This document shows, piece after piece, positions 8,549 through 34,171 of a stretch of 34,566 nucleotides of DNA. The DNA comes from Planctomycetota bacterium. GTDB taxonomy: Bacteria > Planctomycetota > Planctomycetia > Gemmatales > Gemmataceae. The notes beneath the pieces were generated by a model. That model did no database searches. It was not told the origin of the DNA and was given only the letters and a program-made list of their open reading frames with translations. Position numbers and translations under genes: made by a program. The DNA lies in assembly GCA_021807595.1 (NCBI GenBank), contig JAKBCS010000048.1, positions 1 to 34,566 on the forward strand. Direction: 5' to 3'. Positions within the stretch are counted from its first letter, which is position 1. Each line of letters opens with the position of its first letter.

Positions 8549-9085
8549 ATGTTACCCATGCGAACGATTGTATACGCGACCGACTTCTCGGAGAACGCCG
8601 AGCCAGCCTTCGACCTGGCCTGTGCTTTGGCGGGCGAAGGAAAAGGAAAATTGATCGTTCTCCACGTCGAACGCCCTCCTTTGGCATCGCTCGGCGGAAC
8701 GGCTGGCGTACCGCCGATAGCTCCGGAATACGAACGACGATCTGCTTGGGAGCAGCTGCAGCGCTTTCGGTCGATGCGGCCCGGAATCGACCTCGAGCAT
8801 CGCTTGGAATTTGGGGAGCCGGGTGCAGTCATCCTGCGTATTGCAGATGAGAGGAAAGCCGATCTGATCGTCGTCGGCACGCACGGGCGGACGGGTCTAC
8901 GGCGGTTCCTGATGGGCAGCGTGGCCGAGCGCGTGGTGCGCAAGGCATCCTGTCCCGTTCTCACCGTGCGCACGCCAGTGCAAACGAAGTTGACCCTGCC
9001 GTCTTACGAAGACGAAGAAGGCGAGCAAGGCGGCTCGAAACTGAAACGAACAATCTTCTCTCAAGGAGACACATCATGCCGGTGA
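8549..9085 (+). CDS. Single-domain universal stress protein
   Basis: A 178-residue UspA-fold protein. It starts TIVYATDFSENAEPAFDLAC and carries the fully canonical nucleotide-binding loop VVGTHGRTGLRRFLMGSVAE, so it is the most probable ATP binder of the two single-domain paralogues here. The two paralogues share the TDFSEN start and HGRT motif but differ elsewhere, so the duplication is old. About 30 acidic and basic residues follow the fold. The gene overlaps the CBS gene by 10 bp and the next ribosome-binding site lies inside it, which indicates coupled translation. Confidence 0.9.
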   Translation: MLPMRTIVYATDFSENAEPAFDLACALAGEGKGKLIVLHVERPPLASLGGTAGVPPIAPEYERRSAWEQLQRFRSMRPGIDLEHRLEFGEPGAVILRIADERKADLIVVGTHGRTGLRRFLMGSVAERVVRKASCPVLTVRTPVQTKLTLPSYEDEEGEQGGSKLKRTIFSQGDTSCR

Positions 9086-9585
9086 TGGTCAAACCGTTGA
9101 TCGCGCTCGTGGCGAGAGACTTGATGAACCGTGAAGTGGCCACCATCCCAATCGACTTGGGAATGCAGACGGCAGCGAGATGGCTGGCTCAGATGCAAGT
9201 CAGCGGCGCGCCCGTGGTGGACGAACGCGGCAGTTGCGTGGGGGTATTGTCGTCGAACGATTTCGTCTCCTGTTGCGCCGCCAACCGTTCGCGCTGCGGC
9301 AAGCATCGCGCCGAGGCCCGCACCGGACCTTGCACCTTCCCAGAGTGCTACGGCTCCGAATGGCAAATCGTTGAACCGGAGAGCAAGGAGGGCACGGTGC
9401 GAGAATTTATGACCCCCGATCCCGCGACGGCACTGCCGGACACGTCCATCGGCAAACTGGCGGAGATGATGGTAGACGCACACCTCCATCGTCTCATTAT
9501 CGTCGACGAACGCAATCGCCCCGTTGGCATCGTATCCGCAACCGACATCGTGGCCGCAGTGGCACGAGCGGGACACGAGGAATAA
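9076..9585 (+). CDS. Two-CBS-domain protein with Cys/His-rich insert
   Basis: The 169 residues contain two CBS motifs, about 12-66 (LMNREVATIP..., GVLSSNDF) and 107-165 (FMTPDPATAL..., GIVSATDIV). They form one Bateman module of the kind that senses adenine nucleotides. Between them lies an insert with C66, C67, C74, H77, C86 and C91, which could hold a metal ion or form disulfides. Mycobacterial Hrp1, a hypoxia-induced two-CBS protein, also binds zinc, so a similar role is possible (inference). There is no other domain. The ribosome-binding site CAAGGAGAC lies within the end of the preceding Usp gene. Confidence 0.88.
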   Translation: MPVMVKPLIALVARDLMNREVATIPIDLGMQTAARWLAQMQVSGAPVVDERGSCVGVLSSNDFVSCCAANRSRCGKHRAEARTGPCTFPECYGSEWQIVEPESKEGTVREFMTPDPATALPDTSIGKLAEMMVDAHLHRLIIVDERNRPVGIVSATDIVAAVARAGHEE

Positions 9586-10418
9586 GGGGCGAGGAGTGTC
9601 CGTGCGGCACATCGCGTTCGCAGCGGAGGTGGGGCGAGGAGGTCTGCGTGCGAAGTGGATGCGCGGGACGCGATCGGGTTCGCGGACGACCGGCACGTCT
9701 TACGATCTATGGCGAGTCCATCTATCTCAAGTTGTGAGGCGTTGTTGTCGTTCGACAAAAAGCCCGCCTCCGTAGAATGCAGCAACGCCGTCCAGTTGTT
9801 CAAAGCATCGTCGCAGACCCACTCCAATCGTGTCCTCGCTTCGGAGCGGCTTGCCTTCATTTTATGTACCAGTCGCTTAGCGAGTCGAATCAATCGTTAC
9901 AGATGCGTTCTCGGCCCGGCGCAGCGTAGCGAAGTTGAGACGAGAACCGATCTCCCCGAACTCCGTCGGCACCGGATACCCCGACGAACTGTGGGGCCGG
10001 ACACGGTTGTATTCCTGACGCCACGATCAGCCGCAACATCAACTTCCAGCCAGCCCGAGTCGTGCAAGGTCGAGGCTCGGAGCCGTCGCCAGTCTCTCGC
10101 ACCTCGGTCGAGATGAAACGTCTCCCCTCCAATAACAGCAAAAAATTTGCGCTATCTGCGCAGTCCTCTGTCGCTAGGTATGGCGAACTCTTGGGGTTGG
10201 GGTGAAACTATACTGAACGATTCGCGCGGTTATCGACGATCATTATTGCGCATGGAATGGCCGATGGATTCGGAGATCGTTCTCGCTGTATCCTCGTAGC
10301 GGACAATTCAATCGCTCCCTTTTGCGAGATGGAGGCGCGATTGCATTTCCAGACACTTCGGATATATTCGTTGCGGATCGAAGGAGCATTCCGCGCGAAG
10401 ATGGGCAAGGAGGCGGTG
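9586..10418. other. Gene-poor stretch with transposase debris before kdsD
   Basis: Apart from the IS3-type remnant at 9877-10026 I see no supportable gene. A TATACT hexamer at 10209-10214 could be a -10 element for kdsD, but no good -35 lies 16-18 bp upstream. The kdsD frame is open back to 10257, but that segment has no homology-like features and precedes the strong ribosome-binding site. Confidence 0.4.
9877..10026 (-). pseudogene. IS3-family transposase C-terminal remnant
   Basis: Read on the minus strand from 10026, the frame gives WRQEYNRVRPHSSSGYPVP followed by TEF. This is the conserved C-terminal tail of IS3-group DDE transposases (consensus near W-x-x-x-Y-N-x-x-R-P-H-S-S-L-G-Y). The frame ends at TAA 9877-9879 and is blocked upstream by TGA at 10027-10029; related-looking sequence continues in another frame. 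The catalytic DDE core is absent, so it is a dead fragment. No terminal inverted repeats were identified. Confidence 0.7.
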
Positions 10419-11471
10419 ATGGGCTTGCAGGTTCATCTGCACAATCCGGGCAGTTCCAGCGAACCTCGTCTGGATTATGCTCGACAGATCGTCCGTGCCG
10501 AGGCGGCGGCGTTGGAGCGCGTTGCGCAGCGGCTCGACGACGCTTTTCTGCGGGCCGTCGATCTCCTCCTGCGGTTGACTGGGCGCGTGTGCATCACCGG
10601 AGCGGGCAAATCCGCCGATGTGGGGCAAAAGATCGCCGGAACCCTCAATTCGACGGGAACGCGCGCCTACGTTCTCGACGCCACCAAAGCGATGCACGGC
10701 GATTTGGGCATGGTGCATCCCGACGATGTGGCGTTGGTTCTGTCGCACAGCGGCGAGAGCGAAGAGATCGTGCGTTTACTGCCTCCGTTGCGACCGATGG
10801 TGCGCGGCATCCTGGCGTTGACCGGCAATGGGCGGAGTACCTTGGCTCAAAAGGCGGACGCGGCCATCGTCTACGGTCCCCTGGAAGAGGTTTGTCCGCT
10901 GGGTCTGGCTCCGAGCGCCAGCACGACGGCCATGATCGCCCTGGGCGACGCTCTGGCGTTTGTACTCAGTCAAGAGCGGGCATTTACGCACGACGATTTT
11001 GCACGCTTCCATCCGGCTGGAAGTTTGGGGCGCAAACTCCTGAAAGTCGAAAGCGTGATGCGACGAGACGGCGACATGCGCCTGGCATCGGCGAACGAAA
11101 CGGTGCGGAGCGTGTACGCGCGGTCGCGGCACACAGGCCGACGTACCGGAGCCGTGGTGTTGGTGGACGACGATGGAAAACTGTGCGGGTTGTTCACCGA
11201 TAGCGATTTGGCGCGCCTGATCGAAGCGCGGCGCGACGCGGCGTTGGATCGCCCCATCGCCGAAGTGATGACCACCGATCCGATCGCGGTGCCGTCGGGA
11301 ACGCGTGTCGGCGATGCCGTCGAACTGCTGCGCCGCCATCGCATCAGCGAATTGCCCGTCGTCGATAGCGCGGGCAAACCGGAGGGATTACTTGATATTA
11401 CCGATCTAATTGGTGTCGTTTCCATCGACGATACCGAGGAGACGACGACGCGGACGAGGATCGGCGCGTGA
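10419..11471 (+). CDS. kdsD: D-arabinose-5-phosphate isomerase, KdsD/KpsF family
   Basis: The enzyme converts ribulose 5-phosphate to arabinose 5-phosphate, the first step towards Kdo of lipopolysaccharide. The 350 residues comprise an N-terminal SIS domain with VCITGAGKSADVGQKIAGT and SHSGESEEIV, the active-site stretch LAPSASTTAMIALGDALA, the segment HPAGSLGRKLL, and two C-terminal CBS domains (VMRRDG...; VMTTDPIAVPSGT). I place the start at ATG 10419 because AAGGAGG lies five bases upstream and MGLQVHLHN leads directly into the fold; in-frame starts at 10401 and 10257 are less well supported. It overlaps kdsC by four bases (GTGA). Confidence 0.92.
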   Translation: MGLQVHLHNPGSSSEPRLDYARQIVRAEAAALERVAQRLDDAFLRAVDLLLRLTGRVCITGAGKSADVGQKIAGTLNSTGTRAYVLDATKAMHGDLGMVHPDDVALVLSHSGESEEIVRLLPPLRPMVRGILALTGNGRSTLAQKADAAIVYGPLEEVCPLGLAPSASTTAMIALGDALAFVLSQERAFTHDDFARFHPAGSLGRKLLKVESVMRRDGDMRLASANETVRSVYARSRHTGRRTGAVVLVDDDGKLCGLFTDSDLARLIEARRDAALDRPIAEVMTTDPIAVPSGTRVGDAVELLRRHRISELPVVDSAGKPEGLLDITDLIGVVSIDDTEETTTRTRIGA

Positions 11472-11962
11472 AGACCTTGCGCGAACGCTGCGCCGCCATC
11501 GAGTGGCTAATTCTCGATGTCGATGGCGTGCTGACGGAAGGCGGCATCGTTTATGCCCATCCGGAGTTGGAGATCAAACGGTTTCACGTCCGCGATGGTT
11601 CGGGGCTGAAGCGGTGGCATCGCGCCGGCAAGCGAGCCGCGCTGCTGACGGGACGTAGTTCGCCGCTAGTGGATCGGCGGGCTGCCGAATTGGACATCGA
11701 CCGCGCGATTCAGGGAGCGACGGACAAACTACCGGCCTATCGGCGGCTGCTCGAGGAAACCGGCGCGGCGGCAGAGACCGTCTGCTACATCGGCGACGAC
11801 GTGCCCGATGTGCCGCCGTTATGTGCGAGCGGCTTGGCCGCCAGCGTCGCCGACGGCTGCTCCGAGGCGCGTGCCGTCGCTCACTACATCACCCGTGCTG
11901 TCGGGGGGCACGGGGCGGTGCGCGAAGTCATCGACTTGATTCTCCGGTGTCAAGGACGTTGA
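11468..11962 (+). CDS. kdsC: Kdo-8-phosphate phosphatase KdsC (HAD superfamily)
   Basis: KdsC removes the phosphate from 3-deoxy-D-manno-octulosonate 8-phosphate. The 164-residue protein is a cap-less HAD phosphatase with motif I LILDVDGVLTEGG (nucleophile and acid Asp pair), motif II LLTGRSS, and motif III GDDVPDVPPL. The pattern matches the tetrameric KdsC family. It starts with GTG at 11468, overlapping the kdsD stop, a typical coupled arrangement. kdsA and kdsB are not in the window. Confidence 0.92.
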   Translation: MKTLRERCAAIEWLILDVDGVLTEGGIVYAHPELEIKRFHVRDGSGLKRWHRAGKRAALLTGRSSPLVDRRAAELDIDRAIQGATDKLPAYRRLLEETGAAAETVCYIGDDVPDVPPLCASGLAASVADGCSEARAVAHYITRAVGGHGAVREVIDLILRCQGR

Positions 11963-12032: not shown

Positions 12033-15000
12033 GTGTGGACTCCCAAGCGCATCGTGTTATTGGTCGGAGGATTTGGACTATTTGTCATCGTCTATTTTAT
12101 CTATTCGTTGACGACTTTGGGGCGCATCAATACGCTTCCTCCTCTACCGGAACAATATAAGATCAGTCGAAAAGGGATGCCGTCCGGCGAGAGATCGACC
12201 AATAAGGTAAACGGTCCCACGCCGCTCCAGAAAAAATTGACGATGGCCTTCAACGCGGGGTGCAAGGAATTAGAGTGGCCGGTTCAACTCGAAATGAACG
12301 CGAAAAACATGGTGTTGGCCGCCCAGCAATGCGATCGCACCGAGGACGGACGGGTCAAGTTCTCGCCGATGAGCTTGGCCATTTTCGGGAAAAACAAGGA
12401 CGGGCGCGGCGTTGAAATCAATACGCTCAAATGCGCGGAGGCGTATCTTCGCTTCGATCGTCGGCTCAGTTCGCTCAATCCCAATGAAATGAATGGCCGG
12501 AAAATCGTCGAGGTGCAATTGATCGGCGACAGCCCCGGCGGCCATCCGATTCGCATCATCAACAACCGGCGCACCCCAAGCGACGAGGACGATCTCGTCG
12601 TCACGATTAACACCGGCCCCGTCTATTATCTCGAAAAAACACAACTCATCAAAACCAGCGATTTCGTGCATATCGTCGATGGCAAATCCACGTCCCGCGA
12701 TGGACAAAGGCTGCTTCCGCCCAAAGCCGACATCTACGCCAAGGGCATGGAGATGGAATTGACCACCGCCGCACCCCCGCCTCGGCCCGGTGTGCTTCTC
12801 GCGCCCAAACCGAAGAACGAATCGATTACCGGCGTCAAGCGCATCGTCCTCAAAGAAAACGTCATCATGAACTTGTGCGTCAACAAAGGCGGCGGGCCGT
12901 TTCCCGGCACCGATTCCGCTTCCAACCGGGTTAAGCCGGCCGCTCCTGGAAAGAATCCCGAGCCTGAGGCACCCTCGCGCATCCGCATCGACTCGCCGGG
13001 CCGTTTCGAGTACCACTTGCTAAAAGATCACGACGAAGCCACTTTCGATGCGCCCACCGACACGGAAATGTCCACCAGTCCGCAAGACGTTATGGTGCAA
13101 CGTCTCAACGACGAGAGCATCGGCTACGACATGCTCGTATGCAAGCATCTGGAACTGCGCATCAAACGGCGCAGCAACGAGAAAGCCGAACCGAAATCCA
13201 CGCTATCGGGTGACGAGCAGGGTTTCGAGATCGAGACCGTTCATGCCACCGGACCCTTCGTCACGCTCACCTCCGACGCGGAGAAACTAACCGCGCACGG
13301 CAACGATTTCTTCCACGATACGAGCAAGAAACTCACCATCCTCAAAGGCGTTCCCACCATGGAAGCCAACAAGGAAGACAATCTGATTGTCGCGCCGATG
13401 CTGACCATTCGGGACGTGCCCCTGCCGGAAACTGCCAAGCAAGGCAACGGCGACAAGAAGCAGAAAGCGAAAACGTATCAATACGTCGAAGCGAGCGGGC
13501 CTGGCCGCATCGACATGATGAACAAATCGACCAAGGAGCGAACTACGCACGCCTATTGGAACGAGAGTCTGGTTTCCACGCGCGACGGTGCGCTCGATCT
13601 GTTGGTGCTGACGGGCGCGGCGCGCTTCAAGGACGACGAACACGATCAATCGCTTCGAGGGGAAGAGTTGAAGGTTTGGCTGTTGCCCGACGACAATCCT
13701 CCGGTGGCGCGGGCCGAATCGCCTCTCCGTCCCGCCGTCTCGCCGTCTCCGCCCACAACCGGACTCGTGAAAGAGAAAAAGGGTGCCGCCGCCTCCGACA
13801 AACCGGCCGCATCGTCGCGCCGACCGCACCACCTCCAAGCCTTGCGGAATGTTTTCGCACACTCCAAGGATATGAATATCCACGATGCCGCCCGCCTCGT
13901 GATCCAATTCACCGATGTGCCGCTCGCCCTGATGCCGCCCAGCAAAGACGACGAGAAAACGAAGTCCAAACCTCGGCCAACCGCAAGTCCCGCCCCTCTC
14001 GTTCCGAATGCGGGGTCGCAACGCACGGGTACCGCGCCGCCGGTTGGCAGCGGGGTACCGCAGCCGATCGCTCGAGCCAATGCGAAAGCGCCAGCGACGG
14101 AGCCGGAGCCAAATCCCATCGATCTGAGCGCGCGCAACATTGAAGCCAAAGTGCTGCGTTGCGAAGAACGCATGGCGCTCGATCATTTGTGGGCCGAGGG
14201 CGGAGCGGCGGAATACTTGCACAAGCGCGGCGGCGTGCGCGTGCGGCAAAAGCCGAGCCGGCCGGGTGAAGACGGCGTGGACATCGAAGCCAACACGCTC
14301 GACATGAGTTGCACCGCCAACGGGAATATCCTCGTCGCCAACGGCGATTTAGCTAGTTTAGAGATGGGCAAAATAAAAATTATCGGCCCCGAGGTTCACG
14401 TCGATCAAGAATCGAACAAGGTATGGGTCGAGGGCGCGGGGGCCATGTGCATGCAGAGCAACACCACGTTGGAAAATAAGCCGCTGGAAAAGCCGATCCC
14501 GCTGACCATCCACTGGAGCGACGATATGTTTTTCCAGGGCACTCATGCGTCGTTTCGCGGGGGCATTCAGGCGGATCAGGGCGAGGCGCGTCTCGCCTGC
14601 CAACGCTTGCAAGTCATTTTCGACCGTCCCATTTCCCTCAAGCAAGGCATGCGCAACGATCGTCCGGCCAAGGTGAAGAAGCTCGTGGCCGACGACGAGG
14701 TGCGGGCCGAGGATCAAACCATCGTCGATGGAAAACTGGAGAAATATCAACGGCTTTCGGGCATTTCGATGACCGTGGAGACGGAGTCGCCCGACGAGTC
14801 GTCCGCCGACGCCAAAGCCCCCGAAAGCAATACCATTCTGTTGTCCGGCCCCGGCAGCGTGCGCATCCTCCAGCGCGGGGGCAACGATGTCGCGACCGCG
14901 CCCGTCAAACCCGCGCCGAGTCGTGCCATTACCCTGTCGCCCGGCGAAGAGGCGCAAGAACTCAAGCTGACCGAAGTTCGCTTCGAGAACTTGATGAAGG

Positions 15001-15482
15001 CCAACAATCTCACGAACGTGGCGACCTTTTGGGGGTCGGTGCGCCTTCTGAACATGCCCAGCGACAATCCGCGCCGCGACATCGACTTCGGCGACATCTT
15101 GTCCAAGGAACTGCCCAAGGGCGTCCTCTATCTCAGCTGCAATCAACTCACGGTGCGCACCTACCGCGTTCGCATTAAAGAGGACAATACTACGGGAAAT
15201 ATAGATAAAAACCACAAGCCCAAGTACCGCACCTATCAAGAGATGGTGGCGACGGGGCAGGTCGTCGTTCAGAGCCAAGAGTTAACCGCCAAGTGCGACC
15301 GCATGATTTTCAACGAAGAGAAGGATCAGATCATCTTCCACGGCGAAAACGGCAACAAAGCCGTGTTATCGAAAGTCACCGTCAAGGGAGGAAGACCGCA
15401 AGTGATCCAGAGCAAGAAGCTCATCTACTACCGTTCGACCAACGCCGTCGAAGGGGACAAGACCGATTCGATCAGCGGCTAA
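12033..15482 (+). CDS. Giant membrane-anchored LptC/OstA-like protein
   Basis: This 1149-residue protein has an N-terminal membrane segment (VLLVGGFGLFVIVYFIYSL, 9-27) and then a long beta-rich, export-type chain. The C-terminal part (about 1065-1140) reads like an OstA/LptA repeat: GQVVVQSQELTAKCDRMIF and DQIIFHGENGNKAVL. Similar strand patterns occur near 740-800 (DIEANTLDMSC, KIKIIGPEVHV). Proline/alanine/lysine-rich linkers occupy roughly 569-600 and 640-694. Its position after kdsDC and its single N-terminal anchor argue for a periplasmic lipopolysaccharide-transport role, combining LptC-like anchoring with OstA-like repeats (inference). It is several times longer than LptA or LptC. Start GTG at 12033 with GAGGAGAT upstream; it lies 70 bp after kdsC. 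LptB is not adjacent. Confidence 0.7.
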   Translation: MWTPKRIVLLVGGFGLFVIVYFIYSLTTLGRINTLPPLPEQYKISRKGMPSGERSTNKVNGPTPLQKKLTMAFNAGCKELEWPVQLEMNAKNMVLAAQQCDRTEDGRVKFSPMSLAIFGKNKDGRGVEINTLKCAEAYLRFDRRLSSLNPNEMNGRKIVEVQLIGDSPGGHPIRIINNRRTPSDEDDLVVTINTGPVYYLEKTQLIKTSDFVHIVDGKSTSRDGQRLLPPKADIYAKGMEMELTTAAPPPRPGVLLAPKPKNESITGVKRIVLKENVIMNLCVNKGGGPFPGTDSASNRVKPAAPGKNPEPEAPSRIRIDSPGRFEYHLLKDHDEATFDAPTDTEMSTSPQDVMVQRLNDESIGYDMLVCKHLELRIKRRSNEKAEPKSTLSGDEQGFEIETVHATGPFVTLTSDAEKLTAHGNDFFHDTSKKLTILKGVPTMEANKEDNLIVAPMLTIRDVPLPETAKQGNGDKKQKAKTYQYVEASGPGRIDMMNKSTKERTTHAYWNESLVSTRDGALDLLVLTGAARFKDDEHDQSLRGEELKVWLLPDDNPPVARAESPLRPAVSPSPPTTGLVKEKKGAAASDKPAASSRRPHHLQALRNVFAHSKDMNIHDAARLVIQFTDVPLALMPPSKDDEKTKSKPRPTASPAPLVPNAGSQRTGTAPPVGSGVPQPIARANAKAPATEPEPNPIDLSARNIEAKVLRCEERMALDHLWAEGGAAEYLHKRGGVRVRQKPSRPGEDGVDIEANTLDMSCTANGNILVANGDLASLEMGKIKIIGPEVHVDQESNKVWVEGAGAMCMQSNTTLENKPLEKPIPLTIHWSDDMFFQGTHASFRGGIQADQGEARLACQRLQVIFDRPISLKQGMRNDRPAKVKKLVADDEVRAEDQTIVDGKLEKYQRLSGISMTVETESPDESSADAKAPESNTILLSGPGSVRILQRGGNDVATAPVKPAPSRAITLSPGEEAQELKLTEVRFENLMKANNLTNVATFWGSVRLLNMPSDNPRRDIDFGDILSKELPKGVLYLSCNQLTVRTYRVRIKEDNTTGNIDKNHKPKYRTYQEMVATGQVVVQSQELTAKCDRMIFNEEKDQIIFHGENGNKAVLSKVTVKGGRPQVIQSKKLIYYRSTNAVEGDKTDSISG

Positions 15483-15555: not shown

Positions 15556-16218
15556 TTACTCTTTTTTGTCCGCCGGCAGCTCGATGACCTCGATCTTGCG
15601 GAACTTGACGACGCTGTTGGGATCGTGTTGTTGCAGGGCAAAATGGCCCTTGGAGAAATTGTTGTTCTCGTCCACAAAATCCACCGTCGTCTTGCCGTTC
15701 ACTTTGATGACGATGTGCTTGCCGCGCGCGATGACCTCCTGGGTGAACCATTCGTTGGGCTTCACCAAGATGTCCTCGACGACGAGCTTCTTCCGATCGC
15801 CGTCCTTCAGCTTCAGACGCGCCGGATAGAGACTGCCCGTCTTGATGCGGTCGCCGTGCGTGCTGTTGATCTGGGCCTCGTACCCGTCGGGGAAGCCGGG
15901 GCCGAACTTGGTGCGGAAATATTGTCCGCTGTTGCTCTTGTCACCGATCGAGACCTCGACGCGGAAGCGAAAGTTCTCGTAGTCGCCGCGCTCGCTGAAT
16001 AGATGGCTGGCCGGCCCGCTGCCGATCAAAATGCCGTCTTCGACGCGCCATTTGCCGGCGCTCTTCGGATGCGCCTTCCAGCCGGTCAAATCTTTACCGT
16101 TGAAGAGCGGCGTCCATTTCTCATCTTTTTTGTCGTCGGCGGAAACGGAGGCCAAGGCCAGCGTCAACCCCGCCGCGATCATCGGCACTACCGCGAACCT
16201 CAATAAATGTCGTACCAT
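15556..16218 (-). CDS. Secreted DUF1080 (3-keto-disaccharide hydrolase-like) protein
   Basis: The 220-residue protein has a signal peptide (MVRHLLRFAVVPMIAAGLTLALASVSA-type, cleaved near residue 27) and one DUF1080 domain. The domain shows the family hallmarks WTPLFNGKDLTGWKAH, WRVEDGILIGSG, SNSGQYFRT and DGYEAQI, and ends with HFALQQHDPNSVVKFRKIEV. The fold is a concanavalin-like jelly roll; some members hydrolyse 3-keto-glycosides. It probably acts in the periplasm. It lies 24 bp downstream of the ThuA-like gene on the same strand, so the two are likely co-expressed in sugar-derivative metabolism (inference). Confidence 0.9.
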   Translation of the reverse strand: MVRHLLRFAVVPMIAAGLTLALASVSADDKKDEKWTPLFNGKDLTGWKAHPKSAGKWRVEDGILIGSGPASHLFSERGDYENFRFRVEVSIGDKSNSGQYFRTKFGPGFPDGYEAQINSTHGDRIKTGSLYPARLKLKDGDRKKLVVEDILVKPNEWFTQEVIARGKHIVIKVNGKTTVDFVDENNNFSKGHFALQQHDPNSVVKFRKIEVIELPADKKE

Positions 16219-24450: not shown

Positions 24451-25902
24451 TCAACACAGAATTTCTTTGAGGATATGACCGCTCGTCTCCGTTAGTCGTT
24501 CGTCGCGTCCGTCGTGCGCGAACGTCAAGTGCTTGTGATCGAGACCGAGCAAATGAAGAATGGTCGCATGGATGTCGTGGACGTGAGCTGGTTTGTCCAC
24601 GGCGTAAAGGCCTATTTCATCGGTGGTGCCGTATACCATGCCGCCTCGGACGCCGCCTCCCGCCATCCACATGGTAAAGCCGAAGGGGTTGTGATCGCGT
24701 CCGTTGCCGCTCTCGCTCATCGGCGTGCGGCCGAACTCGCCACCCCAGACAACCAGCGTTGAATCCAACATGCCTCGCCGTTTCAGATCTTTCAGCAATC
24801 CCGCGATGGGTCGGTCGCTCTCGCGGCACGATTGGGCATGGTTCTTGTCCAAATCGCTATGGGCATCCCATTTACTTCCCGAACCCATGTACAACTGCAC
24901 GAAGCGCACGCCGCGTTCGACCAAACGTCGAGCCAGCAGACAATTGCGACCGTTGCGCGCCGTATCGGCACGATCGAGGCCGTAGAGGCGCTGCGTGGCC
25001 GAGGTTTCGCGCGACAGATCGACGGCGTCAGGCGCGCTCGATTGCATCTGATACGCCAATTCGTAGGCAGCGATGCGGGCTTCGATGGCATCGCTGGCTC
25101 CGCGCCGTGCGGCATAGTGTTCGTTCAAATCCTTGATGTAATCGACTTTGGCCCGTTGGCGTTGGACGCTGGTGTCGGCTGGGGCGTCAGCGTAAAGGAT
25201 CGGCGTCTTTCCGGGGGCGAACTTCGTGCCCTGATAGGTGGCGGGCATGAAGCCGGTACTCCAATTGCGCTCGCCGCCCGGCGGATCGGCATCGTGATCG
25301 GCCAGTACGATGAAGCCCGGTAGATTGTCGCAAACGCTGCCGAGGCCATAGAGCGTCCAAGCTCCCAAGCACGGGCGACCGGGACGAAGATTGCCGGTGT
25401 TCATCTGGCACACGCTGGCGACGTGGGTTTGACCGTCGGCACGACAGCTGCGAAGGACGGCCAAGTCATCGACGCAACCGGCGATCTCCGGATACCAATC
25501 GCTCACCCACAGACCCGACTGGCCGTGTCGTTTGAACGCGCGCGTCGAGGCCAGCAACGGCGTGTTGGCCGTACTCCCCATCGCCGTCATAGGGCGAGCG
25601 AAACTCGATGGCAACGGTTTGCCCGCCAGCTTCTTCAACTGCGGTTTCGGATCGAACAAATCGAGATGACTGGGGCCGCCGTCCATGAAACAGAAGATGA
25701 CACTCCGCGCGCGAGTGGGAAAATGCGGCGGGCGCGGAGCGAGAGGATTCGTGGCCGCGCAGCGCGGCGCGCTTCCGGCGTCGCGCGCCAGCAGCGCGGC
25801 CAAAGCCAGACCGCCGAAGCCCGCGCCGGCGCATTGAAGAAACTCGCGCCGCGACCCAGGCCGCGCGATCGGATGCGATCGATCGGAGTGAGGGAAAGTC
25901 AT
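24451..25902 (-). CDS. Tat-exported DUF1501 protein
   Basis: The 483-residue protein has a Tat leader (SRREFLQCAGAGFGGLALAA, 17-36) and the DUF1501 fold, an alkaline-phosphatase/sulfatase-like domain abundant in planctomycetes. Visible landmarks are VIFCFMDGGPSHLDLFDPKP near the N-terminus, the central RLVERGVRFVQLYMGSG and WDAHSDLDKNH, and WGGEFGRTPMSESGNGRDHN followed by HVHDIHATILHLLGLDHKHL near the end. The exact reaction is unknown. It is encoded just downstream of the DUF1549/DUF1553 gene, its standard partner; the pair probably acts on the cell exterior in processing complex organic matter (inference). Confidence 0.92.
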   Translation of the reverse strand: MTFPHSDRSHPIARPGSRREFLQCAGAGFGGLALAALLARDAGSAPRCAATNPLAPRPPHFPTRARSVIFCFMDGGPSHLDLFDPKPQLKKLAGKPLPSSFARPMTAMGSTANTPLLASTRAFKRHGQSGLWVSDWYPEIAGCVDDLAVLRSCRADGQTHVASVCQMNTGNLRPGRPCLGAWTLYGLGSVCDNLPGFIVLADHDADPPGGERNWSTGFMPATYQGTKFAPGKTPILYADAPADTSVQRQRAKVDYIKDLNEHYAARRGASDAIEARIAAYELAYQMQSSAPDAVDLSRETSATQRLYGLDRADTARNGRNCLLARRLVERGVRFVQLYMGSGSKWDAHSDLDKNHAQSCRESDRPIAGLLKDLKRRGMLDSTLVVWGGEFGRTPMSESGNGRDHNPFGFTMWMAGGGVRGGMVYGTTDEIGLYAVDKPAHVHDIHATILHLLGLDHKHLTFAHDGRDERLTETSGHILKEILC

Positions 25903-25949
25903 GACGATCCTGCGGGGGCGAAATTTCCAAAGACAAATCTCAGGTCAGA

Positions 25950-26012
25950 GGCGATCCGAAAAGCCCCTCTCCCCTGGATTCAGAGGGAGAGGGGAGCTTC
26001 AGAGACAGTTTC
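25950..26012 (-). repeat. Stop-codon-abutting hairpin repeat, copy B
   Basis: On the minus strand the stop codon of the DUF1549/DUF1553 gene is followed at once by GAAACTGTCTCTGAAG and then a 10-bp stem, CCCCTCTCCC (25964-25973) with GGGAGAGGGG (25985-25994). This aligns base for base over most of its length with copy A at 15495-15555. It separates the gene from DUF1501 and may attenuate transcription between them. Confidence 0.75.
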
Positions 26013-28199
26013 TCAATCCACATCGAGGAACTCGGCGGAATTGAGCAACGCATGGCACAAGTCCACCAAGGCGCGATTGCCGTTTCGGTCGGAACTCGAA
26101 CCGATCAATTGTCTCTGATGCGTCAAAAACCTCTCCGCCGCCTCCATTTCGTGGGCGTCCGGCTCGCGGTTAAAGACGCGCCGATAGGCGGAGCGAATCG
26201 AGGCATCGGTATCGTGGCCTTGCTCCGCGATGAGGCGATCCGCCCAGAAGTGGGCTTGCGTCAGTGCAAACTCGCCGTTGAGCATCGCTAAAGCCTGCGG
26301 CGCGGTGATGGTGGCGGGACGCACCGGGCAACTGTTCACGCGGTCGGGTTGATCGAACGCGGCGAGAAGAGGATAAACGAGATTCCTTTTTGACAAAATA
26401 TAAATCGAGCGCCGATTGCGCTCGCACGATTGCTCGTCGGCGTTCCAGGCATAGACGTTTTCCATCATCGCCGTCGGCAATTGCGGGCAACTGCTGCGAC
26501 CGCCCATGCGCGGATGGAGTTGTCCCGATACTTGCAAAATGGCGTCGCGGATCGCCTCCCCCTCGCGCCTCTTGACGCGCGCGTGCCACAACAGGTTATT
26601 CTTGGGATCGACGGAGCGCGCCTTCTCGGCGGAGGCGTTTCGATTCGGCGACGACGCTTGTCGATATGTCGCCGACGTGACGATGAGACGGTGAATCGGC
26701 TTGAGTTTCCAGCCGCCGCGAACCAGCTCTGACGCCAAAAAATCGAGCAATTCGGGGTGTGTTGGCTTATCGCCCATCGCGCCGAAATCATTGGGAGAGG
26801 CCACGATCCCCACACCGAGATGATGCTGCCAGAGACGATTGACGATGACACGGCCCGTTAGCGGATGATCGGGAAGGCACAGCCAACGCGCCAACTCGGC
26901 GCGCGATTTTCCCCGGCTCCCCATTTCGAGACATTCGGGGAAGCCCGGCTCGACGCGCTCGCGCGGTCGATTGTAATTGCCGGTCGCCAAACGGTAGGTA
27001 GACGGTGGCTCGCCCGGAAGATTGACCGCGCCCATCGCCGTCGGCAATGGCGTTGGCATGTCGGCCTCAATCTTTTTCTCCAACGCATCGTACAACGCGC
27101 GCCGATCCTTGTCCAATCGTCGATGCGCTCGACTAAGGCGGCGATCGACCTGTTTGCCCGCCAATGCCACGAGTTGCCGCTGGAGAGGTGTTCGCTTGCG
27201 TTCCACGGTGTTCAGCGCCTTTTGCGTATCGGCATCGAAAGTCGCAATCACCTCGTCGCGGATCGCTCGGCGCGGTTCGACAAGCAACGCATCGCGCCTG
27301 CCGCGCAATTCCTTGGTATCTTGCTCCCACTTCGCAAACCTACGCCGATAGACCGCTTGCTCGGACGCTGAGGCCACGGGCAAATCGTCGCGCTGGATCA
27401 ACGGTGTGAAAAAGGCCTGCAGGCGGAAGTAATCCTTCTGCGTCAGCGGGTCGAACTTATGATCGTGACAGCGTGCGCAGCCGAGCGTCAGACCGAGGAA
27501 AGACGTGGAGAACACATCGGTCACATCGTCCAGAATGTCCTGGCGCACCATGCGATAGTTCGAGCCGTTCGTCTCTTCGGGGGGGAGGCGATAGAAGCCG
27601 GTGGCGATAAGGGCGTCGGGATTGTTCGGCTCCAACTCATCGCCGGCGAGTTGTTGACTCAGGAATCGGTCGTAGGGCAGGTCGTCGTTGCAAGCGCGAA
27701 TAACGTAATCGCGGTAGCGCCAGGCGCTGGGCCTCAGCCGATCGAGTTTGAAGCCGTCCGTCTCGGCATAGCGCACCACGTCGAGCCAATGCTGCGCCCA
27801 GCGTTCGCCGAAGCGCGGCGAACGGAGCAAGCGATCGACGAGCCGTTCGTAGGCATCGGACGATGTGTCGGCCAGAAAGTCCTCGCATTCGCCGGGAGTG
27901 GGCAGCAACCCCGTCAGGTCGAAGGTGACGCGGCGCAGCAGGGTGAGCTTGTCGGCTTGAGGATTGGGTTGCAGTCCTTCCTTTTCCAACGCCGCCACGA
28001 CGAAGGCATCGAGGGGATTGCGCATCCAGGCGGTGCGGCAAACTTCTGGGATCGCCGGTCTCTTCAGCGGGATGAGAGGCCAATTGGGCTGCGTCGCGTC
28101 GTCGGCTCGGCTGGATGCAGCCAGCGCAACCAACAGACACAAGGCGACAATTCTACACGGCCAGAAACAAAGTAGACGAATGCGATAGCGGCGGATCAT
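26013..28199 (-). CDS. Secreted DUF1549/DUF1553 (PSD1-type) protein
   Basis: From ATG 28199 the protein has 728 residues. It opens with a signal-type hydrophobic segment (IVALCLLVALAASSRADD), then DUF1549 (about 55-260) with FDLTGLLPTPGECEDFL, RYAETDGFKLDR and the CxxCH-containing LGCARCHDHKFDPLTQKDY. DUF1553 follows in the C-terminal half (VIVNRLWQHHLGVGIV, RLIVTSATYRQAS, PQALAMLNGEFALTQA). There is no N-terminal cytochrome or PSCyt1 domain, so it is the short form. The frame is open 42 codons upstream, but ATG 28199 places the signal peptide at the N-terminus; the Shine-Dalgarno is weak. It partners the downstream DUF1501 gene. Confidence 0.92.
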   Translation of the reverse strand: MIRRYRIRLLCFWPCRIVALCLLVALAASSRADDATQPNWPLIPLKRPAIPEVCRTAWMRNPLDAFVVAALEKEGLQPNPQADKLTLLRRVTFDLTGLLPTPGECEDFLADTSSDAYERLVDRLLRSPRFGERWAQHWLDVVRYAETDGFKLDRLRPSAWRYRDYVIRACNDDLPYDRFLSQQLAGDELEPNNPDALIATGFYRLPPEETNGSNYRMVRQDILDDVTDVFSTSFLGLTLGCARCHDHKFDPLTQKDYFRLQAFFTPLIQRDDLPVASASEQAVYRRRFAKWEQDTKELRGRRDALLVEPRRAIRDEVIATFDADTQKALNTVERKRTPLQRQLVALAGKQVDRRLSRAHRRLDKDRRALYDALEKKIEADMPTPLPTAMGAVNLPGEPPSTYRLATGNYNRPRERVEPGFPECLEMGSRGKSRAELARWLCLPDHPLTGRVIVNRLWQHHLGVGIVASPNDFGAMGDKPTHPELLDFLASELVRGGWKLKPIHRLIVTSATYRQASSPNRNASAEKARSVDPKNNLLWHARVKRREGEAIRDAILQVSGQLHPRMGGRSSCPQLPTAMMENVYAWNADEQSCERNRRSIYILSKRNLVYPLLAAFDQPDRVNSCPVRPATITAPQALAMLNGEFALTQAHFWADRLIAEQGHDTDASIRSAYRRVFNREPDAHEMEAAERFLTHQRQLIGSSSDRNGNRALVDLCHALLNSAEFLDVD

Positions 28200-28597
28200 G
28201 GTCGAAACCCACGTTGTTTGTGCGGTTCGCGGAAACCGCCGGCCGAGGCATTGCGCGCCGGTCGGCACCCCGCCTGCCGTCGGACCAACGCATGCGCCGC
28301 TGCACGCAATCGACCAACCAGGCACGCTCTATCTTTGAGCAGTAATAGCTACGAGACATTGAGGCATCGCGATCCGGAATCATCATTGACAAGTCGGATC
28401 GGCTGCCTCCAGCATAAAGGCGGGCATTTTCGTGGAGCAATCCTTGCGCCCACTTATCTCAGTGTAATGGGAAACCGGCGCGGTTGCAATGGGATCACTG
28501 ACGAGTTTGCAGAAATCGCTGCCCCATATCGGAGGATTGAGAGGAATGCACGGATGGGGCGAGGTATGAAAGAACAGCAATGCGAACGCTGCCTTTT
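28200..28597. other. Intergenic region upstream of the DUF1549/DUF1553 gene
   Basis: I see no supportable gene in these 398 bp. Short open frames exist on both strands but lack a ribosome-binding site and recognisable protein features. The promoter of the DUF1549/DUF1553 gene should lie here, reading to the left. The right end borders the transposase debris and REP-like hairpin. Confidence 0.4.
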
Positions 28598-32224: not shown

Positions 32225-34171
32225 ATGATGAGGTTTCTAAGAATCGCCACATTGGCGGGGATCGCCTTCGCCATCGTCTCACCCTCGCTTCGCGCCGTCG
32301 ATCGAGAAGCCATCGATCGTGCGATTGAGCGCGGGGTGAAGGCGCTGCGCGGCTTGCAGGCCGAGGATGGCACCTGGCCACAGCAAGAGATCGGCGCTAC
32401 CGCGCTCGCCGGGTTGACGCTTTTAGAGTGCGGCGTCAAAAGCGACGAGAAGGCTGTCGTTCGCGCCGCCGACGCGGTTCGCGCCCTCGGCGTCAACCTC
32501 ACCCACAATTACTCGATTTGCCTGTCGATTCTGTTTCTCGATCGACTCGGCGATCCCGAAGACATACCCCTGATCGAATCGCTCACCGTTCGCCTGCTGG
32601 CTGGACAGACTTCGACCGGCGGATGGGGCTATCGCTGTCCGCCGCTCGGCGATGCCGAAGTGCGGCGGCTGCAAACGAAATTGGCCGCACGTCGAGAATT
32701 GATCGGCCGTCGAGATCCGCCGAAGCCCGGGATCGTTCATCGAAACGAGAAAGATCTCGCGCCAGAGATTCGCCTACAGCTCGCCCTCCTCAAACGAAGC
32801 GGCACGTCTCCCTTGGGCGCGTTCTGCGACAACTCGAATACGCAATTCGCCACGCTCGCTCTGTGGGTGGGCAGGCGTTATGGGCTGCCGGTAGACAATG
32901 CTCTGAAGCGTGTGTCGGCTCGATTTCGCCTCAGTCAGAATGGCGATGGCGGGTGGGGTTATTTTGATCCCAGCATGAGGGGAGGTGCCATGATGGCGCG
33001 GTCGACGGCAAGCATGACCTGCGCGGGATTGCTGGGACTGGCGGTTGCCGACGGCAAAGCAGCCGAGACGCTGCGCGAACGGAAGCCCGATGCCAAGCCG
33101 GCCGGTGACATCAACAAATCCACGCGGGTAAAACGGGGACTGTATGCTCTCAGTTCCACCATCGGACGCGCCGCGGCTGAGAATGCGAAAGGCGCGGCAA
33201 GGGTGGCGGCCATCCCGCAAATCGGCGGTCGATCGTATTATTTTCTCTGGTCGTTGGAGCGCGTCGCCGTGGCACTCGATTTGAAGACGATCGGCAAGAA
33301 GGATTGGTATGCCTGGGGCGCAGAGCTACTCGTTTCCAATCAGCCGGTCGATGGTGTCTGGCGCGGCAGCTACGCCGAGTCGGGAGCCGACACTTGTTTT
33401 GCCCTGCTATTCCTCAAACGCGCCAATCTCGTTCCCGATCTGACGAAGCAGCTCGCGGGTACGGTCAAAGATCCTGGCGAGCGCGCGTTGAAAGGCCGCG
33501 AGGCAATCGAAGGCGGGACCACGCGAAAGGACGGCGATCTCTCCGCGGGCATCGAAGGCAAAAATGCGAAGATCGCGAAGGACGGAGCGTATCCCGCTGA
33601 GCTTCTCAAAGATAACGAGTCCTCTGCCTCGGCCAAGCCGTTTTCCCCGTCAGCCGGCGAGAAAAAGTCCGAGGCGAGTCAAACCGTCGCCAATGATACT
33701 CCGACTTCGACGGCGGGAAACATGGCTGAAGACCTGGCGAAATCGACCGGCTCACGTTTCGACCTGTTGGTGAAGCTGTACCGCGAAGGCAAGGGGGCGG
33801 ATTTCACCGAGGCGCTGGCACTGGCCATTCCACAGATGAATGGCGACCGCCAAGGGAAAGCGCGAGACGCCCTTTTTGAGCGCCTCAAGCGCATGAAAGA
33901 CTCGACACTCTCGCAGTATCTAGGCGATGAGCTATTGGAAATCCGCATCGCTGCCGCCCGCGCTTGCGCCTTCAAAGGCAGTAAATCGCTGATCCCACGC
34001 CTAGTCCCCCTGGTCCGCGACACGCGCGGCGGCGTGGCCGAGGCGGCACACAACGCGCTCAAGGAGTTAAGCGGGCGAGATTTCGGTCCCAAGCCCAACG
34101 CTAACCGCGAAGAACGCCTGCAAGCCTCGCGCGAATGGCTCGAATGGTGGAATAACCGGGAAGGAAAATGA
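32225..34171 (+). CDS. Secreted alpha/alpha-toroid repeat protein with HEAT-like C-terminus
   Basis: The 648-residue protein has a signal peptide (FLRIATLAGIAFAIVSPSLRA, residues about 4-24). Prenyltransferase/squalene-cyclase-type toroid repeats cover about 28-420: GVKALRGLQAEDGTWPQQEI, AGQTSTGGWGYRCP, RLSQNGDGGWGYFDP and SNQPVDGVWRGSYAES. The G-x-W-G/P core of each repeat is clear, but the DxDD catalytic motif of cyclases is not visible, so it may be a scaffold or binding protein. A Ser/Lys-rich linker (about 425-500) leads to a helical segment with HEAT-like repeats (LEIRIAAARACAFKGSKSLI; GGVAEAAHNALKELSG, about 570-625). ATG 32225 or 32228 with a strong GAGGAGGA site. It is followed 24 bp later by the pseudopilin-like gene. 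Confidence 0.8.
   Translation: MMRFLRIATLAGIAFAIVSPSLRAVDREAIDRAIERGVKALRGLQAEDGTWPQQEIGATALAGLTLLECGVKSDEKAVVRAADAVRALGVNLTHNYSICLSILFLDRLGDPEDIPLIESLTVRLLAGQTSTGGWGYRCPPLGDAEVRRLQTKLAARRELIGRRDPPKPGIVHRNEKDLAPEIRLQLALLKRSGTSPLGAFCDNSNTQFATLALWVGRRYGLPVDNALKRVSARFRLSQNGDGGWGYFDPSMRGGAMMARSTASMTCAGLLGLAVADGKAAETLRERKPDAKPAGDINKSTRVKRGLYALSSTIGRAAAENAKGAARVAAIPQIGGRSYYFLWSLERVAVALDLKTIGKKDWYAWGAELLVSNQPVDGVWRGSYAESGADTCFALLFLKRANLVPDLTKQLAGTVKDPGERALKGREAIEGGTTRKDGDLSAGIEGKNAKIAKDGAYPAELLKDNESSASAKPFSPSAGEKKSEASQTVANDTPTSTAGNMAEDLAKSTGSRFDLLVKLYREGKGADFTEALALAIPQMNGDRQGKARDALFERLKRMKDSTLSQYLGDELLEIRIAAARACAFKGSKSLIPRLVPLVRDTRGGVAEAAHNALKELSGRDFGPKPNANREERLQASREWLEWWNNREGK

Follow-up and report, generated by a model that had tools for sequence, protein, structure and literature searches.

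A long LptC-LptA-type fusion protein as a probable single-chain lipopolysaccharide bridge in Planctomycetia

Can the periplasmic bridge for lipopolysaccharide (LPS), in Proteobacteria made of separate LptC and LptA proteins, be built from one polypeptide? The question is raised by a gene for a 1149-residue protein (positions 12033-15482, plus strand) that follows the 3-deoxy-D-manno-octulosonate (Kdo) genes kdsD and kdsC in a Planctomycetota bacterium of the family Gemmataceae. The whole stretch of DNA analysed, here called the window, comprises 34,566 nucleotides (assembly GCA_021807595.1, contig JAKBCS010000048.1, positions 1 to 34,566); the protein is referred to as the window protein. An earlier reading of the sequence alone had proposed a membrane-anchored LptC/OstA-like protein acting as a single-chain bridge. 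Our analysis makes it very probable that the protein is such an LPS bridge, with an anchored LptC-like first module, about three LptA/OstA-type modules and proline-rich linkers between them.

OstA content and predicted fold of the long protein

The reading frame is open over 1149 codons, starts with GTG and includes its stop codon. A 'WTP' motif right behind the start is common to 19 of 29 homologous loci, several of the remainder being truncated, and a hydrophobic N-terminal stretch followed by 'PPLP' occurs in most homologues whose N-terminus is complete. Searched as a single sequence, the family was present in 53 of 59 relatives. A profile of 25 rows (A1), consisting of the window protein and 24 of the 29 loci L002-L030 (L011, L016, L020, L025 and L030 were truncated or had no clear start), recovered it from 117 of the 118 genomes sampled from the class Planctomycetia, only G112 giving no match. 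Thus, the open reading frame (ORF) does not exist by chance. Among the matches listed, most open frames of the long homologues have about 900-1600 residues. A search of named records returned nine loci, all from close relatives. One homologue, L055, whose contig is titled Candidatus Kuenenia stuttgartiensis, has a product that shares 97% identity over the best segment with L005, a homologue of Gemmatales type; this record is probably misbinned or mislabelled.

Pfam model PF03968 (LptA/LptD-N, OstA) matched residues 1039-1136 with 23.5 bits (cut-off 20.4), in agreement with the earlier label 'OstA-like'. At E ≤ 0.01, it matched 19 of the 25 A1 members including the window protein, and PF06835 (LptC) matched one of the 25. 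A hidden Markov model (HMM) built from 24 OstA stretches of proteins from outside the class detected three stretches in the window protein (residues 397-457, 837-896 and 1041-1129). At E < 0.01, this OstA HMM recognised 49 of 61 long-protein rows, none of the 61 reversed and none of the 61 shuffled ones; the rows, left after removal of those with identical last 300 residues and containing the window protein as copy L068, include truncated copies and near-identical relatives and hence do not represent 61 independent proteins. When applied to 131 neighbouring ORFs it gave a single match, itself a long protein. A sequence search of the PDB with the family profile (E up to 10) retrieved only two entries, both LptA (E 0.08 and 0.83); the window protein as a single sequence retrieved none. 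Alignment of the profile with itself by hhalign hinted at internal repeats (best off-diagonal E 1.6e-4). PF04453 (LptD) found no match in the window protein, which accordingly does not classify as an LptD-type outer-membrane β-barrel. It differs from a small soluble LptA, which in E. coli has about 185 residues, by its 1149 residues and its N-terminal membrane helix.

This helix comprises residues 4-26 (12042..12110, plus strand as for all parts of the gene) in the full AlphaFold2 model computed from 25 sequences. It is hydrophobic and conserved, and supports the earlier assumption of a membrane anchor. It is followed by an almost exclusively β-structured chain with 62 strands and unstructured stretches. 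A separate model of the N-terminal half (residues 60-640, 45 sequences) was better, with a predicted local distance difference test score (pLDDT) of 81.0 and a predicted template modelling score (pTM) of 0.78. In structure comparisons with VIA, the top eight rows for the whole model were all LptD or LptA/LptH chains, and LptC (6mit) reached Z 10.2. For the N-terminal half, all top fifteen rows were LptD, LptA/LptH or LptC, the first unrelated row having Z 7.8. The best-aligned structures for residues 71-402, 416-613 and roughly 906-1149 were LptA and the N-terminal part of LptD. The β-jellyroll check proposed along with the sequence-only reading therefore returned predicted Lpt-type folds, with Z 11.1 for LptA 2r19 and 10.7 for LptA 2r1a.

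One LptA contains 16 strands, and the 62 strands together with the ranges of the matches suggest about four modules. Module 1 (residues 71-402, 12243..13238) lies at the LptC position and aligned with 4q35, an entry titled 'membrane protein' which we take to be LptD (Z 11.7, 181 residues, root-mean-square deviation (rmsd) 4.4), and with LptDE 8h1s (Z 11.3, 172 residues, rmsd 4.6). Module 2 (residues 416-613, 13278..13871) aligned with E. coli LptA 2r1a over 126 residues with an rmsd of 2.6. A linker at residues 629-695 (13917..14117) contains 16 prolines in 67 residues, its positions 640-689 having pLDDT values below 50, and a second stretch at 555-597 contains 8 prolines in 43; the proline-rich linkers of the earlier description are thus real features of the sequence. 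Module 3 (residues 696-948, 14118..14876) is all-β in the model, contains the HMM stretch 837-896 and is provisionally assigned from sequence and strands only. Module 4 (residues 977-1149, 14961..15479) is OstA/LptA-like, harbours the PF03968 match and aligned with 2r19 over 123 residues (rmsd 2.0, model residues 948-1149). All borders, including those of module 2, are approximate, because OstA matches at 315-461 (hhalign) and 397-457 (HMM) cross the structural border near 402-416.

Shorter fusions and conserved gene order

Clearer relatives of this architecture came from a search of the phylum with PF03968. Matches were obtained in 51 of 244 sampled genomes, five of the 51 belonging to the class of the window, and revealed anchored proteins of 635-720 residues in other Planctomycetota. 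From 30 loci (L110-L139), 15 with intact frames of this length were combined in profile A3 (rows from L110-L136); L115, L117, L119, L123 and L125, which have similar frames, and ten others with truncated, unclear or different frames were omitted. All 15 members matched both PF06835 and PF03968 in one chain, and the OstA HMM detected three stretches in each. L110 even passed the NCBIfam equivalog thresholds of both proteins within one chain, with 80 bits for LptC (TIGR04409, cut-off 38, residues 42-196) and 73 bits for LptA (TIGR03002, cut-off 71.7, residues 523-641).

Alignment of A1 with A3 by hhalign gave an E-value of 5.9e-18 and a probability of 99%. Segment by segment, nine of 16 comparisons had E ≤ 1e-5 in an order fitting LptC first and OstA behind, the best of 16 comparisons with reversed segments having E 0.047; these E-values are pairwise and not database ones. 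Residues 182-247 of the window protein matched the LptC part of A3 (1.9e-6), and residues 315-461 (1.3e-9), 820-893 (2.5e-9) and 980-1144 (1.8e-8) matched its OstA parts. The N-terminal segment did not match the OstA parts in this comparison, nor did the C-terminal segment match LptC. The earlier term 'LptC-like' consequently holds at the level of profile-profile comparison, but not at that of PF06835, which does not match the window protein.

The shorter fusions also bear on protein length, which had tentatively been attributed to a wider or differently organised planctomycete periplasm. We set this explanation aside as unsupported. The window protein has about four modules, and relatives of 635-720 residues at the same gene position already combine an LptC part with three OstA stretches. 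Loops and the long proline-rich stretches therefore make up a good deal of the additional length.

The position of the gene is conserved as well. Upstream of it in the window lie kdsD (10257..11471, plus strand; arabinose-5-phosphate isomerase type, with Pfam SIS and two CBS domains) and kdsC (11468..11962, plus strand; KDO-8-phosphate phosphatase type, with a Pfam HAD domain), the latter separated from the fusion gene by 70 nucleotides. Both products exceed NCBIfam subfamily cut-offs (TIGR00393, 240.8 bits, cut-off 203.7; TIGR01670, 139.6 bits, cut-off 106.95) and fall short of the cut-offs of the narrower equivalog models for KdsD and KdsC. The initial description of a 1149-residue ORF beside kdsD-kdsC was accordingly correct. 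In 54 of 54 genomes, kdsC and/or kdsD were found on the same strand at most 1.4 kb upstream of the long homologue (57 genomes had the locus; three with less than 350 nucleotides upstream were excluded). Where at least 1300 nucleotides were available upstream (45 genomes), 38 had both genes, six only kdsD and one only kdsC. At the eight fetched loci of the shorter fusions, kdsC was present upstream in all eight and kdsD in seven. As the order in E. coli is kdsD-kdsC-lptC-lptA-lptB, the fusion gene occupies the slot of lptC-lptA. The nearest identified downstream gene, coding for a 3-keto-disaccharide hydrolase (15556-16218), is located on the opposite strand, so that the gene run seems to end with the fusion gene.

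Farther downstream in the window, a DUF1501 gene adjoins a PSCyt2/PSD1 gene on the minus strand (24451-28325), and a 648-residue ORF (32225-34171) matches a squalene-hopene-cyclase C-terminal-type model above and a HEAT-repeat model below the respective cut-off.

The remaining Lpt components and competing explanations

The genome from which the window originates (G000; 5.67 Mb, 282 contigs, 95.5% complete) encodes further parts of an LPS export route. LptB was identified with 316 bits (equivalog cut-off 240). Its gene adjoins rpoN on the same strand (L041:7576-8727 and 8794-10377, G000:C70), a pairing which in Proteobacteria is also found behind lptC-lptA. By this analogy, an ancestral lpt cluster may have been split behind the fusion gene. 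Two LptF/LptG-type permeases are present. About 100 nucleotides upstream of one of the permease genes (L042:5012-6244), on the same strand, lies an ORF for 1104 residues (L042:1598-4909, G000:C181) with a partial match to DUF748 (40 bits, below the Pfam cut-off of 50). DUF748 is presumably AsmA-like, and the ORF possibly encodes another lipid bridge, partnered by a permease of the LptF/G type.

LptD of the same genome (G000:C27:54738-57239) was recognised with an E-value of 1.1e-266 by a profile (A2) made from PF04453 matches of the class, which detected LptD in 58 of 59 relatives. The curated Pfam models PF04453 and PF19838 missed it, and for the 1223-residue ORF (L171:1132-4803, G000:C27) neither Pfam (E ≤ 0.01) nor NCBIfam (E ≤ 1e-6) returned a match. 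Thus, annotation with curated models may miss LptD. An LptD match in another genome (G011:C1:1756566-1759496) contains one in-frame TAA.

Separate LptA (PF03968) or LptC (PF06835) proteins were not detected in the genome of the window. Across the 118 class genomes, PF03968 gave 17 matches, all 17 inside the coordinates of the long protein, and PF06835 (E ≤ 0.05) gave five weak ones, three in the long protein and two in LptD, so that neither model detected a stand-alone LptA or LptC in this sample. Together with the predicted Lpt-type β folds, this supports the original idea of a single-chain bridge. Outside the class, OstA matches in four genomes (G240:C23:24020-24376, G198:C26:9796-10125, G212:C190:8082-8408 and G154:C223:1032-1361) fall into short open frames of 169-225 residues, the size of a separate LptA. 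LptA-sized separate proteins may thus exist elsewhere in the phylum, and the fusion may not be universal in Planctomycetota.

In the mechanism that we propose, the first module would dock on LptF and receive LPS, or a lipid A glycolipid akin to it, from LptB2FG in the inner membrane. The lipid would then be handed along a continuous groove formed by the successive modules. At the outer membrane, the final module would be docked on LptD through the N-terminal part of the latter. One chain would thereby span the periplasm.

Several observations weigh against this interpretation. At the sequence level, the PF03968 match of the window protein is too weak to appear in a genome-scale search, and PF06835 has no match at all in its genome. 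No NCBIfam match was obtained for the protein at E ≤ 1e-6, and hence none to the LptA equivalog. The A1 match is often partial (e.g. positions 636-1065) in those families of the class that are more distantly related. With regard to gene order, lptB resides on another contig than the fusion gene, and neither lptB nor rpoN was detected in any of the eight stretches fetched for the shorter fusions. At the structural level, the full model reaches intermediate confidence (pLDDT 74.2, pTM 0.53), so that we infer the continuous groove rather than read it from the model. Unrelated all-β chains come close in the VIA comparison of the whole model (radial spoke 7dmp, Z 10.5; junctophilin 9uo9, Z 10.3), and ranking by Foldseek E-value puts teneurins first, with probabilities of 0.63 and 0.16 compared to about 1.00 for LptA rows. 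The teneurin, DDB1, radial spoke and junctophilin matches, which have low Foldseek probabilities or appear as isolated rows between numerous Lpt chains, were discarded as general all-β resemblance. Finally, the inside/outside alternation of hydrophobic residues along the strands is barely above that of shuffled sequences (38 of 2000 reach the overall value). None of the modules reaches significance by itself, and module 4 falls below the shuffle mean.

The alternative that fares best is that the protein is an enlarged LptC, or LptA, and that the bridge is made complete by a small, divergent LptA from another locus. PF03968 gave only 17 matches in the class although the long protein is present in 117 of the 118 genomes; since the model misses the long protein in most of them, a very divergent small LptA could escape it too. 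For the genome of the window alone, a small lptA could also have been missed owing to its incompleteness and its many contigs. Nevertheless, we regard this alternative as unlikely, given that every OstA match of the class lies inside the long protein and none of the five LptC matches is stand-alone. Moreover, the LptC and LptA models share one chain in the shorter homologues, and three OstA stretches were detected in the window protein.

Less probable still is a bridge of the same fold for another lipid, such as a phospholipid, a hopanoid or another glycolipid, comparable to bridge proteins of the AsmA/VPS13 type. LPD-3, which we take to be a bridge-like lipid transfer protein, ranked high in Foldseek (rank 2 with a probability of 1.00 for the whole model, rank 6 with 0.95 for the N-terminal half) and shares the long β chain with the window protein, in which Pfam (E ≤ 1) detected no AsmA/VPS13-type domain. 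In VIA, however, LPD-3 reached only Z 5.5 compared to 11-12 for Lpt chains, and the location of the gene next to Kdo genes as well as the presence of LptB, LptF/G and LptD argue against this alternative. A scaffold or other all-β periplasmic protein without a transport role, OstA-like by fold only, could be suspected from the weak Pfam match, the near-equal unrelated β proteins in one structure comparison and the weak hydrophobic alternation, but is very improbable in view of the profile-profile match to proteins that are recognised by curated LptC and LptA models, the spread of the family through nearly the whole class (117 of 118 genomes) and its conserved place behind kdsC.

Relation to known bridges and implications

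The proposed single-chain LPS bridge resembles the proteobacterial LptC-LptA-LptD bridge in its predicted β-taco/jellyroll modules, its N-terminal anchor, the location of its gene after kdsD-kdsC and the occurrence of LptB, LptF/G and LptD in the genome. It differs in that about four modules and proline-rich linkers are united in one chain instead of being distributed over separate LptC and LptA proteins, and in that lptB is located elsewhere, beside rpoN. With the shorter planctomycetotal fusions it shares the membrane anchor, the succession of an LptC part and OstA parts in one chain, and the position behind kdsC. The LptC and LptA sequences of the shorter proteins are much clearer, and their length is 635-720 residues, whereas most members of the class have about 900-1600.

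Other lineages have solved the task with separate proteins. In diderm Firmicutes, two separate OstA proteins of about 200 residues, candidates for LptA and LptC, are encoded in a four-gene lpt cluster, and no LptD was found (PMC5007114). The OstA domains are alike, but there they reside in two small proteins. In Borrelia, separate LptC and LptA genes, as opposed to the fusion described here, lie directly upstream of lptB (PMC10353723).

The completeness of the LPS export route in planctomycetes has hitherto been argued from partial gene lists. The portion available of the study by Speth et al. 2012 (PMC3422733) uses LptD, BamA and TonB as markers and does not name LptA, LptC or LptF. Another source counts Planctomycetes among the groups whose Lpt and Tol-Pal sets are 'largely reduced' (PMC8871954). 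A fused and divergent LptC-LptA protein may account for part of this verdict as worded there. In the literature searched, from which subscription journals are largely absent, we came across neither a natural LptC-LptA fusion nor a planctomycete LptA or LptC. If true, the fusion would leave LptE, for which no search was made, as the sole Lpt part without identification.

The contacts of LptA with LptC and with LptD have been proposed as steps at which the bridge undergoes quality control (PMC8824477). If the bridge is naturally covalent, the LptA-LptC contact drops out of this control, and the modules of such a bridge can be counted and their number altered. For Planctomycetia and some other planctomycetotal lineages as a whole, we lean slightly towards the view that LPS travels from the inner membrane to LptD over one covalent bridge with a fixed number of modules and no LptA oligomerisation. 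If this is true, the length of the bridge and the joint between LptC and LptA would be set by a single gene, and agents that break the LptC-LptA contact would be without a target in these bacteria.

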